DNA from: Gammaproteobacteria bacterium
GTDB taxonomy: Bacteria; Pseudomonadota; Gammaproteobacteria; SZUA-152
Assembly (NCBI GenBank): GCA_032250735.1
Contig: JAVVEP010000002.1
Span: forward strand, 48,003 to 112,002
Length of the DNA stretch: 64,000 nt
Direction of reading: 5' to 3'
Under the pieces are notes generated by a model. It was not told where the DNA came from. It saw only the letters and a program-made list of their open reading frames with translations, and made no database searches. Both the position numbers and the translations under genes were made by a program. Shown in pieces: positions 51,471 through 57,528 of the stretch; the stretch's first letter is position 1, and each line of letters begins with the position of its first letter.

Positions 51471-52529
51471 TCAGGTAAAACTCTTTAACATGGATGACAA
51501 CAACGCCATGCGAATGAATACCGCGCCACGGGCCTGGGCGAAATACCAGTTGTGCGGCGTGTCATCCAGTTCCCGTGCAAGTTCATCGCCGCGCGCCAGC
51601 GGATGCAGAATGATGGCGTTTTCTTTCAGGGGCGATGCTTTGTCGAGCCGGTACTGGCTGCCCAATTCTTCATAATCATCACCCACCCAGGCGATGGTGT
51701 TGATGTACACCACATCCAGTTTCGGCAGCTCTTTGTTCATGTCGTTGCTAACCCGAAAGCTGAGGCCCTTGCCTTCCAGTTCTTCACGCTGGTCTTTGGC
51801 AAACGGATCACTCTCATCACTGATGATGACGACTTCGGTGAGGGCATCGGCAAACAGACTCAGCAGGATCAGCAGGCTGCGCACGGTGCGCATGCGCCCC
51901 GGCACGCCGATAATGCCGATGCGGATGCGCTCATGCATGTTGATCTCGGGTAGGCATAGCTCGGGTCGCCATTTAAGGATGGCGTAGATGTCCGCCATGG
52001 CCTGTGTCGGGTGTTCATCGGTGCCGTTGCCGCCATTGATGATGGGGATGCGCAGGCCTTCGAGCATTTCATAGACGGCCTTCTCGTCACCGTCACGCAG
52101 CACAATCAGATCACCGTAGTGATTGAGCATCTCGCCGATGTCGTACAGCGACTCGCCCTTGGCGATGCCGGTCGAGGCGGGGTCGGTGATCGACATGATG
52201 TCGCCGCCCAGACGATGCCAGGCGCTTTCAAATGACAGCCGGGTTCGGGTGCTGGGTTCATAAAAGGCGCTAATGAGAATCTTGCCGGTCAGCGGCCGCG
52301 TGATCATCTGTGGCTGGGTTTCATACCGGGCCGCCAGCCGTGACAGCTGCAGCAGCTGCGCGCGCGTGAACTGGCTGGCGGACACCACCGGACGCAAGGT
52401 CAGGTCGAGCAGCGGGGCCAGGTCTTCATGGATCGCGTCCATCAGATCGCGGGGGCGTTCGAATCCCTGGGTGTCCAGGGTCTGGTCTCCAAGCTGTTCC
52501 CGGAGAATGGGGCTTTTTTTGTCTACCAT
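51471..52529 (-). CDS. Aspartate carbamoyltransferase-like enzyme with altered acceptor site
   Basis: A 352-residue carbamoyltransferase. The carbamoyl phosphate site is intact: STRTR at 93-97, the 80s-loop Ser and Lys (PASTGIAKGES), HPTQ at 173-176 and the HPLARGDEL loop at 309-317. The Arg167-equivalent in GRMRTVRSL is kept. The E. coli YMTR.Q segment that binds aspartate (Arg229, Gln231) reads YINTIAW here, so Arg and Gln are gone. An acceptor amino acid without a beta-carboxylate is therefore likely. The start ATG overlaps the 3' end of the preceding 40-residue gene. It is not the pyrimidine enzyme by these criteria; the neighbours are carbamoyl and amide enzymes. Confidence 0.8.
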   Translation of the reverse strand: MVDKKSPILREQLGDQTLDTQGFERPRDLMDAIHEDLAPLLDLTLRPVVSASQFTRAQLLQLSRLAARYETQPQMITRPLTGKILISAFYEPSTRTRLSFESAWHRLGGDIMSITDPASTGIAKGESLYDIGEMLNHYGDLIVLRDGDEKAVYEMLEGLRIPIINGGNGTDEHPTQAMADIYAILKWRPELCLPEINMHERIRIGIIGVPGRMRTVRSLLILLSLFADALTEVVIISDESDPFAKDQREELEGKGLSFRVSNDMNKELPKLDVVYINTIAWVGDDYEELGSQYRLDKASPLKENAIILHPLARGDELARELDDTPHNWYFAQARGAVFIRMALLSSMLKSFT

Positions 52530-52645
52530 AGGCGTTTGGTTAACCAGTCCTTTATCCACAAGATGATTAATACAAGGGGTGCAATGGCAGTTATAGCTAT
52601 TGCCGTTCCAACCAACCAGGTCAGTGCGTTTATCGAGATCGTCAT
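52523..52645 (-). CDS. 40-residue single-helix membrane peptide between symporter and carbamoyltransferase
   Basis: Too short for most gene callers. The minus strand from ATG at 52645 encodes MTISINALTWLVGTAIAITA and then IAPLVLIILWIKDWLTKRLW before TAG: one transmembrane helix and a basic, Trp-rich cytoplasmic end. Its ATG overlaps the symporter stop (ATGA) and its end overlaps the carbamoyltransferase start by 7 bases. The double overlap argues that it is translated. Small partner peptides accompany several SSS symporters, so it may be an accessory subunit. Confidence 0.65.
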   Translation of the reverse strand: MTISINALTWLVGTAIAITAIAPLVLIILWIKDWLTKRLW

Positions 52646-54081
52646 ACTCGTGTCTCCCCGCGGCCAGCGAGCCTGTCCCAGTCAAACTCATGGGGCCGTA
52701 GCCAGGTGGTCAGCAACACGACACTCATGGAGACCGCCGCGGAGATCAGCGCCGCCACATAGAAGCCGATGAGGAAATAGCCGGCCAGGCCGATGACGGT
52801 GCCGGCCACCATCGCCAGCGCCGCGCCGCCCGGATTGACGCGTCGCCAAAACAGCCCGGCGGCGATGGGCCAGATGGTGCTGGCCACGAAGGCACCGGTG
52901 AAATACAGCAGCTCGGCCAGGGTGGTGAGGCGCGGCAGGCATAACAGCCAGGCGGTGATACCCAGCCCCAGCACCACCCAGCGCGCGGCGCGGGCGAGTT
53001 CTGCCTCGCTGGCCCGGGGGCGGAAATGGCCCTTATATATGTCGGTGAGGATCAGGTCAGAGGTGGCGGCCAGCAGCGAATCAAGACTGGAGGCGAGGGC
53101 GGCAAACACCACGATAAACACCAGCACGGCACCACCAGCCCCGAGCAGGTTGGCCGCCACCAGCGGCCCCACCATGTCGGCGGCAGGCACATTGATCCCC
53201 AGTGCCGGTACCGTGAGGGCAATAAATCCGGCCACAATCGGGATCGGCAACCAGAACACCCCGGCGATGAAATAGGCCTTGAAGCCGACGCCGGCACGGA
53301 AGGCAAAGGCCCGGCTCCACCAGACATTGGAATGAAAGATTTCGCCGATCCCAAACAGCAGGTTGTTAAACAGAAACATGATGGCGGCCGGCATCAGCAG
53401 GTTCAGCAGCTCGGGGCGTTCTTCCAGTGCCGCCGCATGCATGCGCTCAAAACCCACTTCGGCGATCGCCAGCCAGGCCAGGATGACGATACCGACCAGG
53501 ATGATCAGGGTCTGTAGAAAATCCGTGCCGATCACCGCGCGCAGCCCACCCAATATTGTGTACAGCACGCACACCGCGAGGATCACGCTCATGCCGATGC
53601 GGTAGTCGATCCCGGTCAGGGCATGTACCAGCACACCGCCCGCCATGCCCATGGAGACCAGCCAGCCGAAGCCATAAAACAGGGAGATGAGCAGAAAGAT
53701 GCGCCACGCCGTCTTGCCATAGCGCAGGCGCACAAAATCGCCGCTGGTATAGCCGCCGGGCATTAGCGCATGGATGCGCCTGGCCAGCGGGGCGAAGAGG
53801 ATCAGGCCCACCGAGCCGAGGGAGTATCCCAACATGCCCCATACGCCCATCTGCAGGGCCAGTTGCGGGGCCGCCATGGTGGTGTTGCTGGTGACCCAGG
53901 TGGCCATGGCGGTGGCGGTGCCCAGGGCCAGACCCACCCGACGCCCTGCCAGCATAAAGCCTTCCAGGCCTTTGGCGCGCCGGCCGAGATAGGCCCCCAG
54001 GGCGATCCACAGCAGCGAGAAGGCGGCGAGGATCATCCAGCCGGTATTGGCGTCCAGCAGGGCGCTGTGCATGTTATTCAT
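52642..54081 (-). CDS. Sodium:solute symporter (SSS family)
   Basis: The 479-residue membrane protein has about 13 hydrophobic segments and SSS-family features: AYLGRRAKGLEGFMLAGRRVGLALGTATAMATWV, GGLRAVIGTDFLQTLIIL and a conserved region around ASSLDSLLAATSDLILTDIYK. SSS carriers take up small solutes such as proline, pantothenate or ureides with sodium. Its ATG overlaps the isochorismatase-type stop (ATGA). In this operon the likely cargo is the carbamoylated or amidated compound handled by the neighbouring enzymes. An upstream in-frame opening to 54264 is antisense-like and not used. Confidence 0.9.
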   Translation of the reverse strand: MNNMHSALLDANTGWMILAAFSLLWIALGAYLGRRAKGLEGFMLAGRRVGLALGTATAMATWVTSNTTMAAPQLALQMGVWGMLGYSLGSVGLILFAPLARRIHALMPGGYTSGDFVRLRYGKTAWRIFLLISLFYGFGWLVSMGMAGGVLVHALTGIDYRIGMSVILAVCVLYTILGGLRAVIGTDFLQTLIILVGIVILAWLAIAEVGFERMHAAALEERPELLNLLMPAAIMFLFNNLLFGIGEIFHSNVWWSRAFAFRAGVGFKAYFIAGVFWLPIPIVAGFIALTVPALGINVPAADMVGPLVAANLLGAGGAVLVFIVVFAALASSLDSLLAATSDLILTDIYKGHFRPRASEAELARAARWVVLGLGITAWLLCLPRLTTLAELLYFTGAFVASTIWPIAAGLFWRRVNPGGAALAMVAGTVIGLAGYFLIGFYVAALISAAVSMSVVLLTTWLRPHEFDWDRLAGRGETRV

Positions 54082-54824
54082 GGCTCGACCACTTCGCGGA
54101 TTTCGGTGATGGCCTCTTGCGTGGTCAGTACGCGGGCGTAGCGGTCCTTCATGGTGGTAATGGTGGCGTGCTGCAATTCCGGGGTGACGGTTGCGCAGGC
54201 ATCGGATATGAGAGTGACGTGAAAGCCGAGATCGCAGGCATCCCGAATGGCGGTGGAGACGCACTCGTTGCTGTAGACGCCGACCACGAACAGGCCGTTG
54301 ATGCCCAGGTTGCGCAGGATGTATTCGATATTGCTGGAGTTAAACACGCCGCTGGCGGTCTTGTTGATGATGATCTCGTCGTCCAGCGGGGCGACCTGTT
54401 CCAGAAATTCGGCCTCCCTGGAGCCCGGCGCGGCATGCAGGCCCAGGCGCTTGTGGCCTGGGCTGCGGTCGCGGCCGTCGTGGGTGAGCGACTGGATGCG
54501 GGTATGGATGACCTCCAGCCCGCGGGCCCGAAAGGCGTCCTGTAGCTGGCGCACATTGGGTAGCACGGTCTGTTCGAGACGATCGAAATAGTAGCGCTGG
54601 GCCGCGAGCGGCACCCCCGAGGCCTCGGCCGTGGCAAACACCCCGAAGCCCGCTGCCGCGTCCAGGTACTGCATATCGATGCACAGCAGGGCGGTCTGAT
54701 GGGTCTCCAGCGAGAGGGTGACGGCCGGGGTGTGGGTGATGGAGCGCCGGTAGGCCTCGCGCAGGGGATCCACATCCAGAAAGTCTTCGGTGGAGGGTGT
54801 GGGGGTCTGGTGTTTGTGGGTCAT
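54078..54824 (-). CDS. Isochorismatase-fold amidohydrolase
   Basis: This 248-residue cysteine hydrolase has the catalytic triad of the family: Asp50 (LLCIDMQ), Lys155 (IIINKTASGVF) and Cys188 (VYSNECVS). Relatives include N-carbamoylsarcosine amidase, ureidoacrylate amidohydrolase RutB and nicotinamidase. It would hydrolyse either a primary amide or a ureido group. It starts 2 bases after the M20 gene and overlaps the symporter by 4. The substrate cannot be read from sequence, but the position suggests an amide made by the asparagine-synthetase-like enzyme. Confidence 0.88.
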   Translation of the reverse strand: MTHKHQTPTPSTEDFLDVDPLREAYRRSITHTPAVTLSLETHQTALLCIDMQYLDAAAGFGVFATAEASGVPLAAQRYYFDRLEQTVLPNVRQLQDAFRARGLEVIHTRIQSLTHDGRDRSPGHKRLGLHAAPGSREAEFLEQVAPLDDEIIINKTASGVFNSSNIEYILRNLGINGLFVVGVYSNECVSTAIRDACDLGFHVTLISDACATVTPELQHATITTMKDRYARVLTTQEAITEIREVVEP

Positions 54825-54826
54825 GG

Positions 54827-56068
54827 TCAGGTGGACAGCCGTTTGAGGGTGTTTAACAGGACATTGGCGCCGGCCTCGATGTCCGCCCACGCCGTCCACT
54901 CTGCGGGGGAGTGGCTGCGGCCTTCCTTGCTGGGGACGAAAATCATGCCGGCGGGTGCGATGCGGGCGATGATCTGGGCATCATGGGCCGCGCCACTGCT
55001 CAGGTGGGTCGCGGACAGGGCCAGGGCGGTTACCGCCTCATCGATGGCGTCCAGCACGCTGGTGGCGCACGGCACGGGGGCGATCTCACTCAGTACTGTA
55101 AAGGCGAACATCAGATTGCGGCGGCGGGCGATCGCGGACAGGCTTCTGCGCAGGGCGGCGGCCATGGTCTCGAGGGTGGTGGCGTCGGTATCGCGGACAT
55201 CCAGTGAAAACACCGCCTCGCCCGGCACCATATTGGCCGCACCGGGCTTGAGCGCCACTCGGCCGATGGTCGCGGTGCTTTGCGGGCTGCCGTATTCCGC
55301 CAGTACGCGATCCAGCTGGCCAGCGAATTCGGCGAGGCCCTGAAAGGCATCGGCGCGCATATGCATGGGGGTGGTGCCGGCATGGTTGGCGGCGCCGCTC
55401 AGGGTGATTTCCCATTTGAACAGGCCGGTAATGGCGTCAACGATGCCGATGCTGCAACGCTTGCGGTCCAGCACCGGCCCCTGTTCGATGTGTAATTCGA
55501 CATAGGCATGGATGCTGCCGGGGGCACGCTGGGCGTGCAGCGCCTGGCGGGCATCCAGTCCGCGGGCCGCCAGCGCGGCGCTCAGGCTGACGCCGTCGAG
55601 GTCGCAGGCCTGGTGTAGATACTCGGGTGTCACCAGCCCCGCCACGGCCTGGGAGCCAAACATGCCGCCGAAGCGGCCTTCTTCATCACTGAAGGAGACG
55701 GCCTCCAGCGGGCGCTTCAGCGTGAGCCCGGATTCCTGCAATACGCGCAAGGCCTCCAGCGCACAGATGACCCCCAGGGCGCCATCCAGATGGCCCGCAC
55801 CCGGTACGGTATCCGCGTGCGAGCCTGCCATCACGCTGGCGGTCTGGTCATTCCAGTTCAGGCGCGCATAAAGATTGGCGGCGCCGTCCTGATAACACTC
55901 CAGACCGCTATCGATAATCCGCTGGCGTAACCAGTCACGGCCGGCCATGTCGCCATCACTGAAGGCCATGCGGTAGATACCCTGGTCTTCATACCGACCA
56001 ATCCGGGCGAGGGCGTCGATGTCCTCGCGCAGACGTTCGGCGTTGACCCGCAGCTCGGGGGTACTCAT
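54827..56068 (-). CDS. M20-family N-carbamoyl amino acid hydrolase (HyuC/AllC/beta-ureidopropionase type)
   Basis: A 413-residue dinuclear metallo-amidohydrolase. Metal ligands are visible: His84 and Asp95 in GSHADTVPGAGHLDG, Glu130 in SDEEGRFGGMFGS, His193 in ELHIEQGPVL and a final His in GRSHSPAEW near residue 385. The family (N-carbamoyl-L-amino acid hydrolase, allantoate amidohydrolase, beta-ureidopropionase) removes a carbamoyl group as CO2 plus ammonia. The ATG overlaps the stop of the upstream membrane-protein gene. In this operon it would undo what the carbamoyltransferase makes. Confidence 0.9.
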   Translation of the reverse strand: MSTPELRVNAERLREDIDALARIGRYEDQGIYRMAFSDGDMAGRDWLRQRIIDSGLECYQDGAANLYARLNWNDQTASVMAGSHADTVPGAGHLDGALGVICALEALRVLQESGLTLKRPLEAVSFSDEEGRFGGMFGSQAVAGLVTPEYLHQACDLDGVSLSAALAARGLDARQALHAQRAPGSIHAYVELHIEQGPVLDRKRCSIGIVDAITGLFKWEITLSGAANHAGTTPMHMRADAFQGLAEFAGQLDRVLAEYGSPQSTATIGRVALKPGAANMVPGEAVFSLDVRDTDATTLETMAAALRRSLSAIARRRNLMFAFTVLSEIAPVPCATSVLDAIDEAVTALALSATHLSSGAAHDAQIIARIAPAGMIFVPSKEGRSHSPAEWTAWADIEAGANVLLNTLKRLST

Positions 56069-56583
56069 TTTGCTGCCTCCGGGCCGCGCACAATCAGCAC
56101 CACGGTGGCCACAAACACCACGATACCCAGCGACAGAAACAGCAGGGCGCGGGACAGGCTATGATGGGTGACTCGCACGCTAACGGTGTCACTCCAGGGG
56201 CTGGCCTGCGGCGCCACACTGCGCAGGCGATAATGCCGGGCGCCGTCCGGTTTGCCGGAGAAGACCGTGGCGCTATCGGGGCCGCGGTAGGCGGTCACCG
56301 CATCGCGAAAATCCGCCTGGGTGGCCTCCTGTAGTTCCCAAACAGGTGTCCAAATAGATTCCTTTAGGGGTGCTGTTACCGATTCCACTTCACTGCTCGC
56401 CGTCTCCCAGCTGAGGCGGTAGTATCCTGCCGTGACGACATCACCCGAAGTGGATAGTCGTGGCGCGGGCAGTTGAGATCCGGCGGCCGCGGTGCTGAAC
56501 AGGCACGCCAGCAACAACACGGCCAGCCCGATCCGTTGCGGGCGGCTTTTGGTCGTGAGGTGTCTACGGGACAGGGCGGTCAT
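56065..56583 (-). CDS. Membrane-anchored protein with signal peptide and FnIII-like domain
   Basis: I do not recognise a named family. The 172-residue protein has a signal peptide (LAVLLLACLFSTAAAGS), an extracytoplasmic beta-rich domain of about 90 residues in fibronectin III style (GYYRLSWETA...HYRLRSVAPQASPWSDTVSVRV) and a C-terminal membrane helix (ALLFLSLGIVVFVATVVLIV). It would be anchored in the inner membrane facing the periplasm. Its ATG and stop overlap both neighbours by 4 bases, so it is part of the operon, possibly as a partner of the symporter or an osmosensing component. Confidence 0.7.
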   Translation of the reverse strand: MTALSRRHLTTKSRPQRIGLAVLLLACLFSTAAAGSQLPAPRLSTSGDVVTAGYYRLSWETASSEVESVTAPLKESIWTPVWELQEATQADFRDAVTAYRGPDSATVFSGKPDGARHYRLRSVAPQASPWSDTVSVRVTHHSLSRALLFLSLGIVVFVATVVLIVRGPEAAK

Positions 56584-56997: not shown

Positions 56998-57528
56998 ATG
57001 GGCGGACATGAGGATATCGGCGATAAGGTGATTATCGCTCTGCGACGCGTGATTCGCGCCGTGGATCTGCATTCCCGCACCCTGGTGCAAAGTCACGGCC
57101 TGACCGGGCCGCAGGCGCTGATTCTGAAGGCCTTGAGACAGGGCAGCCTGCCCGCCGGTGAGCTGGCGACCCGGGTCAGCCTCAGTCAGGGTACGGTGAC
57201 CGATATCCTCATTCGGCTTGAACAGCGCGGCCTGCTCAAGCGCATACGGGATACCACGGACAAACGCCGGGTGCTGGTGGAGGCCACGGCCGCCGGCATG
57301 ACCCTGCTCAGGCAGTCGCCACCACTGTTGCAGGAGCGCTTTGTGGAGCGCTTCACTAATCTGCACGAATGGGAGCAGACGCAACTGCTGGCCTCGCTGC
57401 AACGGATTGCCGCGATGATGGATGCGGAGGATATCGACGCTGCACCGGTGCTCTCCAGTGGCTCGATGCGGGCCACGGCCAGGGCCGTCGAGGAGGTGTT
57501 GGGGCCGGAAGATCTCGGCGGTGAATAA
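56998..57528 (+). CDS. MarR-family transcriptional regulator
   Basis: A 176-residue winged-helix protein with HGLTGPQALILKALRQGSLPAGELATRVSLSQGTVTDILIRLEQRGLLKRIRDTTDKRRVLVEAT, the MarR DNA-binding domain, and helical ends for dimerisation. Length fits the family. It is divergent from the carbamoyl-solute operon and 81 bases before amylosucrase. MarR-type EctR proteins control ectoine operons in halophiles, so control of osmolyte genes here is a reasonable inference, not shown. Confidence 0.85.
   Translation: MGGHEDIGDKVIIALRRVIRAVDLHSRTLVQSHGLTGPQALILKALRQGSLPAGELATRVSLSQGTVTDILIRLEQRGLLKRIRDTTDKRRVLVEATAAGMTLLRQSPPLLQERFVERFTNLHEWEQTQLLASLQRIAAMMDAEDIDAAPVLSSGSMRATARAVEEVLGPEDLGGE

Follow-up and report, generated by a model that had tools for sequence, protein, structure and literature searches.

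The stretch of DNA analysed here (the window; 64,000 nucleotides from a gammaproteobacterium) carries an operon around a carbamoyltransferase (CT) that resembles aspartate transcarbamylase (ATCase) and is most likely a transcarbamylase of an undescribed family. The family shares one residue pattern, forms a separate clade, is almost invariably paired with an asparagine-synthase-like amidotransferase (AsnS) and lies among genes for hydrolases and transport. With somewhat better than even confidence, we interpret CT as a glutamine N-alpha-transcarbamylase in an operon for making, recapturing and recycling an uncharged glutamine-derived osmolyte, CGA. If this is true, genes can be assigned to an osmolyte described in 1991, the transcarbamylase family gains a new acceptor, the annotation has to be corrected (models place CT nearest aspartate carbamoyltransferase), and a nitrogen-rich solute is predicted in picocyanobacteria and other saline bacteria.

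Domains and active-site residues of CT

Both transcarbamylase-superfamily domains were found in CT, with Pfam scores above cut-off (OTCace_N, 128.5 bits; OTCace, 56 bits). Sequence models put CT nearest aspartate carbamoyltransferase, a pyrimidine-synthesis label; the NCBIfam ATCase models scored 188 bits (cut-off 237) and 186 bits (cut-off 263), both below threshold. Among the knotted transcarbamylases (YgeW, AOTCase, SOTCase), which are marked by a proline-rich loop and a trefoil knot, the YgeW model gave a weak match of 33 bits over just 66 residues. The structure model used (pLDDT 85.8; an earlier one had 73.8) has a two-domain fold, for which ATCases were the best matches in overall fold alignments (Z 33 to 37, rmsd about 2). 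The top chain had a VIA-align Z of 36.8 and an rmsd of 2.3 over 312 residues, and the best 50 matches comprised 49 ATCases and one OTCase.

In CT numbering the retained motifs are STRTR (93-97), Lys124 (E. coli Lys84), Arg145 (Arg105), HPTQ (173-176) and Arg214, which lies in GRMRTVRSL and corresponds to Arg167. Conservation was counted over 84 distinct CT family sequences in E. coli PyrB numbering. K84, R105, H134, Q137 and R167 are kept in all 84, so that the transcarbamylase HPxQ motif is present throughout, and STRTR / SxRT is kept in 83, the remaining row having a gap there. The first-pass annotation had listed STRTR, HPTQ, the arginine of GRMRTVRSL and both serine and lysine of the 80s loop as retained; this stands except for the serine, since glycine occupies the Ser80 position in 84/84 sequences.

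The segment equivalent to YMTRVQK of E. coli PyrB reads YINTIAW in CT (residues 275-281) by alignment. This replacement, noticed earlier for YMTRVQ in the single protein, proved universal in the family: Arg229 is replaced by Ala, Ser or Thr and Gln231 by Ala in every one of the 84 sequences, the PyrB stretch Arg229-Val-Gln231-Lys appearing as (A/S/T)-I-A-(W/F). The RxQxER motif of the ATCase 240s loop is absent from all 84, positions 233-234 being gaps, and the OTC motif DxxxSMG was likewise absent from CT, where the corresponding residues are N(A/S/T)IAW(x)GD or similar. According to the excerpted text of a review (PMC4581275), RxQxER is present in all known ATCases, Arg229 and Gln231 both bind the beta-carboxylate of aspartate, and the alpha-carboxylate is held by Arg167 and by Lys84 of the adjoining subunit; an excerpt on plant ATCase (PMC7878868) agrees on the residue roles. 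Because Arg167 and Lys84 are kept whereas Arg229 and Gln231 are lost, the acceptor of CT should carry an alpha-carboxylate and no side-chain carboxylate; judged from the residue pattern, an alpha-amino acid whose side chain is not acidic is the probable acceptor.

A second departure from ATCase, which the first-pass annotation did not mention, concerns the HxLP motif. This motif is common to transcarbamylases with some variation allowed (PMC4581275, in excerpt), and it reads HPLA in 84/84 family sequences, so that catalysis by CT could be altered. A crystal structure exists for the E. coli ATCase mutant P268A (title of entry 1ezz), which indicates that the ATCase fold tolerates the change from HPLP to HPLA.

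Phylogeny, distribution and the amidotransferase partner

A tree was built from 38 chosen rows (22 CT, 13 other carbamoyltransferases from the loci and three from E. coli). In it the CT family forms a clade with support 100/99, apart from the PyrB rows, OTC and YgeW; the tree flags long branches, o_L009 among them, and the YgeW branch is very long and its placement unsure. The clustering inside PyrB that would have spoken against a different specificity was not seen. Together with the loss of RxQxER, a clade outside the sampled PyrB rows bears out the earlier expectation of altered specificity, and a changed acceptor for the family is, at the level of sequence, well supported. L009 and L135 (G032:C10, contig end) hold a degraded-looking paralogue, in which the carbamoyl-phosphate motifs are changed and two stops interrupt the reading frame; the L009 row lies inside the CT clade on a long branch.

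A search of the named genome collection with short exact peptide patterns yielded 40 loci of the family (Thioalkalivibrio, other gammaproteobacteria, Synechococcus and Nitrosomonas halophila). It is present in 23/369 gammaproteobacterial genomes (counting the source genome of the window), 17/386 cyanobacterial genomes (E 1e-50), 4/125 genomes of the Nitrosomonas family and 41/47 genomes of the Thioalkalivibrio order. In one of these 41, a phototrophic genome, CT is split in two frames (L130, G070:C1:1194674-1195662), either through a genuine lesion or through faulty sequencing. In the window's own genus, no CT match better than 1e-21 was obtained in any of 11 other genomes, and two of 12 genomes in the rest of the window's taxonomic family had a CT family member; the distribution is therefore patchy. 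G000 and four named genomes (two Thioalkalivibrio, Nitrosomonas halophila and Synechococcus) each contain two further, lower-scoring carbamoyltransferase genes, which look like PyrB and OTC, and the window's genome has a separate PyrB-like gene of its own besides CT.

The most constant feature of the loci is the gene following CT. An AsnS orthologue lies directly downstream on the same strand in 87/88 distinct CT relatives with at least 700 bp of downstream flank, and in the sole unpaired case (G105) both genes are kept about 0.7 Mb apart (C4:1598446 and C4:2304938). The CT of that genome (L127, G105:C4) is without the usual neighbours and stands beside genes for a lipid A acyltransferase and 2-oxoglutarate dehydrogenase. 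AsnS, the M20 amidohydrolase and the isochorismatase-fold hydrolase (ISO) occurred in none of 29 lower-scoring, mostly PyrB-like carbamoyltransferase loci that served as controls (26 with at least 700 bp of flank). Among the 47 genomes of the Thioalkalivibrio order, 40 have CT and AsnS, one CT only, one AsnS only and five neither; both genes are present in all 11 genomes of the order with a photosynthetic reaction centre, which are probably Ectothiorhodospira and kin.

AsnS exceeded the cut-off of TIGR01536 (440 bits), and its N-terminal MCGI and its SGGIDS are conserved. It did not reach the thresholds set for the NAGGN and XrtA amidotransferase models, scoring 323.9 bits with the NAGGN model TIGR03104 (curated cut-off 570). 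A carbamoyltransferase and an ATP- and glutamine-dependent amidotransferase constitute a biosynthetic pair, and the partner points to glutamine as a specific acceptor for CT and to a specific product; its constancy turns the acceptor question into a concrete candidate osmolyte pathway.

Gene content of the operon

On the minus strand the genes are arranged in the order 172-aa protein, M20, ISO, symporter, 40-aa microprotein, CT and AsnS, with a MarR gene divergent upstream (Table 1). Most junctions overlap or nearly touch, which suggests one transcript. Longer mechanical open reading frames exist for CT (start at 52691), ISO and the symporter; the ATG codons of the latter two were chosen by us. 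Promoter- and terminator-like sites were counted above the shuffled mean but were scattered, and neither these nor the short inverted repeats that were detected entered the interpretation.

Table 1. Genes of the CT operon in the window
Feature	Position	Strand	Remarks
Asparagine-synthase-like glutamine-dependent amidotransferase (AsnS), 669 aa; candidate for alpha-carboxylate amidation of the carbamoylated amino acid	49431..51440	-	
ATCase-like carbamoyltransferase (CT), candidate L-glutamine N-alpha-transcarbamylase	51471..52529	-	352 aa from ATG
Putative single-pass membrane microprotein, 40 aa	52523..52645	-	Start overlaps symporter stop; stop overlaps CT start
Sodium:solute symporter, candidate for osmolyte uptake	52642..54081	-	PF00474, 109.7 bits; probable ATG 54081, mechanical ORF to 54264
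Isochorismatase-fold cysteine hydrolase (ISO), candidate amidase opening the 1-amide	54078..54824	-	PF00857, 122.5 bits; probable ATG 54824, mechanical ORF to 54899
M20 N-carbamoyl-amino-acid amidohydrolase, candidate for release of the amino acid from N-carbamoylglutamine	54827..56068	-	NF006771, 500 bits, above cut-off
Putative membrane protein, 172 aa, accompanies symporter	56065..56583	-	N-terminal signal-like and C-terminal hydrophobic stretches, by eye
MarR-family regulator, divergent, candidate operon regulator	56998..57528	+	PF01047, 49.4 bits

Asp75, Lys180 and Cys213 of ISO, which we take to be its catalytic residues, are conserved in 40 distinct relatives, and its closest relatives of solved structure, among them biuret hydrolase and N-carbamoylsarcosine amidohydrolase, are cysteine hydrolases. 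M20 scored 395 bits with the ErtE N-carbamyl-L-glutamate amidohydrolase model, below the cut-off of 520. Its Asn279 and Arg292, the latter presumably a carboxylate-binding residue, are kept in common with its best solved relative, the N-carbamoyl-L-amino acid hydrolase 3n5f. The 172-aa protein had no Pfam or NCBIfam match. Similar short open reading frames with a terminal -LW or -VW separate symporter and CT in 12/12 relatives examined (L067 with unread bases); Nitrosomonas and Synechococcus are among the relatives that have them. The microprotein, being small, probably partners the symporter. The MarR neighbour is 83% identical in L033 and L035 and 59% in L132.

Gene content was counted at 42 distinct loci that have long flanking sequence to either side of CT. 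An M20 homologue was present at 39, an amidase candidate at 38 (29 isochorismatase-type, nine DUF1028), the symporter at 34, the 172-aa protein at 25 and a MarR gene above 60 bits at eight. The phototrophic loci of the Thioalkalivibrio order (L125, L126, L128-L130) have the order M20-amidase-CT-amidotransferase without symporter, and the Synechococcus loci the order symporter-CT-amidotransferase-M20-DUF1028. Two Nitrosomonadaceae loci (L159, L160) consist of the 172-aa protein, symporter, CT and amidotransferase, and no M20 or amidase match was found nearby. At cyanobacterial-type loci the isochorismatase-type amidase is missing and a DUF1028 gene follows M20 (L064:12450-13184, also L060, L061, L063, L065-L068, L071 and L161-L163); DUF1028 looks like a non-homologous replacement of the amidase there.

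Proposed pathway, alternatives and related systems

In the pathway that we envisage, CT would carbamoylate L-glutamine on its alpha-amino group with carbamoyl phosphate as the donor, and AsnS would turn the alpha-carboxylate of the resulting N-carbamoyl amino acid into an amide, using ATP and glutamine. The symporter and the two small putative membrane proteins would recapture leaked or external solute, and in recycling ISO would remove the 1-amide before M20 removed the carbamoyl group, which would give glutamine back. Deamidation by ISO followed by decarbamoylation by M20 is plausible because the residues named above are kept in both enzymes. CGA is glutamine with exactly one carbamoylation and one alpha-amidation. 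It was reportedly described by Galinski and Oren in 1991 as an osmolyte that salt-living bacteria use against osmotic stress. The acceptor, the order of the steps, CGA as the product and the osmotic role are inferred. Glutamine is our best guess for the acceptor, and asparagine or other neutral amino acids are possible.

The literature excerpts name E. marismortui/E. mobilis as the source of CGA and describe it as a minor solute known to date from a single organism; no genes for its biosynthesis were found in the open-access literature searched. According to an excerpt of PMC7824335, E. mobilis/E. marismortui are without choline-to-betaine genes. No betA was found in G063, G065, G066 and G105, and a partial match in G067, which only hints at which genomes could be E. 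mobilis/E. marismortui. A search for ectoine synthase in the 11 phototrophic genomes gave no match, but as the control likewise matched nowhere, this result carries no information. Further sources cited are PMC1224877, PMC3857566 and PMC5231179.

Several observations weigh against the CGA pathway. CGA is reported as a minor solute of one organism, whereas the CT family is widespread; the HPLA motif could mean altered catalysis; a MarR gene above 60 bits accompanies just 8/42 long loci; L159 and L160 are without the two hydrolases nearby and L062 without an amidase; and the CT of G105 has no adjoining AsnS, M20 or ISO. Another acceptor (e.g. asparagine, alanine, glycine), or amidation as the first step, would follow the same carbamoylate-and-amidate logic, and the osmolyte would then be some other uncharged N-carbamoyl amino-acid amide. 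We regard this as a possible but rather unlikely outcome: the residue pattern specifies just an alpha-amino acid without acidic side chain, and M20 scores below threshold with the N-carbamyl-glutamate model, but CGA is the sole such osmolyte reported in the excerpted sources and comes from a group with the genes in 11/11 phototrophic genomes, and the retention of R167 speaks for an alpha-carboxylate that is still free when carbamoylation takes place.

Considered by themselves, the hydrolases and the symporter would fit hydantoin or allantoate utilisation as well, and an M20 enzyme of allantoate amidohydrolase/carbamoylase type, an isochorismatase-type amidase and a symporter in one operon could form a catabolic cluster, in which imported ureido compounds (hydantoin, allantoate, N-carbamoyl amino acids) are degraded and CT runs in reverse, like UGTCase, to give carbamoyl phosphate. 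This is improbable, since the constant partner (87/88) is an amidotransferase consuming ATP and glutamine that has no place there, the H(T/S)LP signature of UGTCase was found in none of the 84 sequences, and L159 and L160 keep CT, AsnS and the symporter without the hydrolases. CT was therefore rejected as a UGTCase or other catabolic enzyme. In our view it is very improbable that CT is a divergent ATCase in which a different loop supplies the residues for continued use of aspartate, or that it is an ATCase-like regulatory protein without activity. Fold and sequence are indeed closest to ATCases, but the genomes checked hold a separate PyrB-like gene and the CT clade lies outside PyrB, and since the carbamoyl-phosphate residues are invariant, CT is unlikely to be inactive. 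ATCase was rejected as its identity because RxQxER is absent and the clade stands apart, and a relationship to YgeW or OTC because of weak model scores and the tree, in which the place of YgeW is unsure. The CGA pathway thus remains the reading that we prefer.

Compared with known systems, CT shares with PyrB ATCase the fold, the carbamoyl-phosphate site and Arg167/Lys84, and differs from it in the absence of RxQxER, a shorter 240s loop, HPLA instead of HPLP, glycine at Ser80 and its separate clade. UGTCase is also an enzyme of the ATCase branch with a changed acceptor, annotated as a pseudo-ATCase (PMC4581275, in excerpt), but it has H(T/S)LP, and the constant amidotransferase partner of CT misfits purine breakdown. 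A parallel in operon logic is offered by the NAGGN operon asnO-ngg, in which, according to excerpts of PMC8070244, the osmolyte is finished by the asparagine-synthase-like AsnO and which in P. aeruginosa is controlled by the divergent MarR regulator PA3458. Common to both are an uncharged glutamine-derived osmolyte completed by an asparagine-synthase-like amidotransferase (both product and last step being predicted for the CT operon) and a divergent MarR gene. The NAGGN operon pairs AsnO with another amino-blocking enzyme: there the amino group is blocked by acetylation and peptide formation, whereas in the CT operon it would be blocked by carbamoylation.
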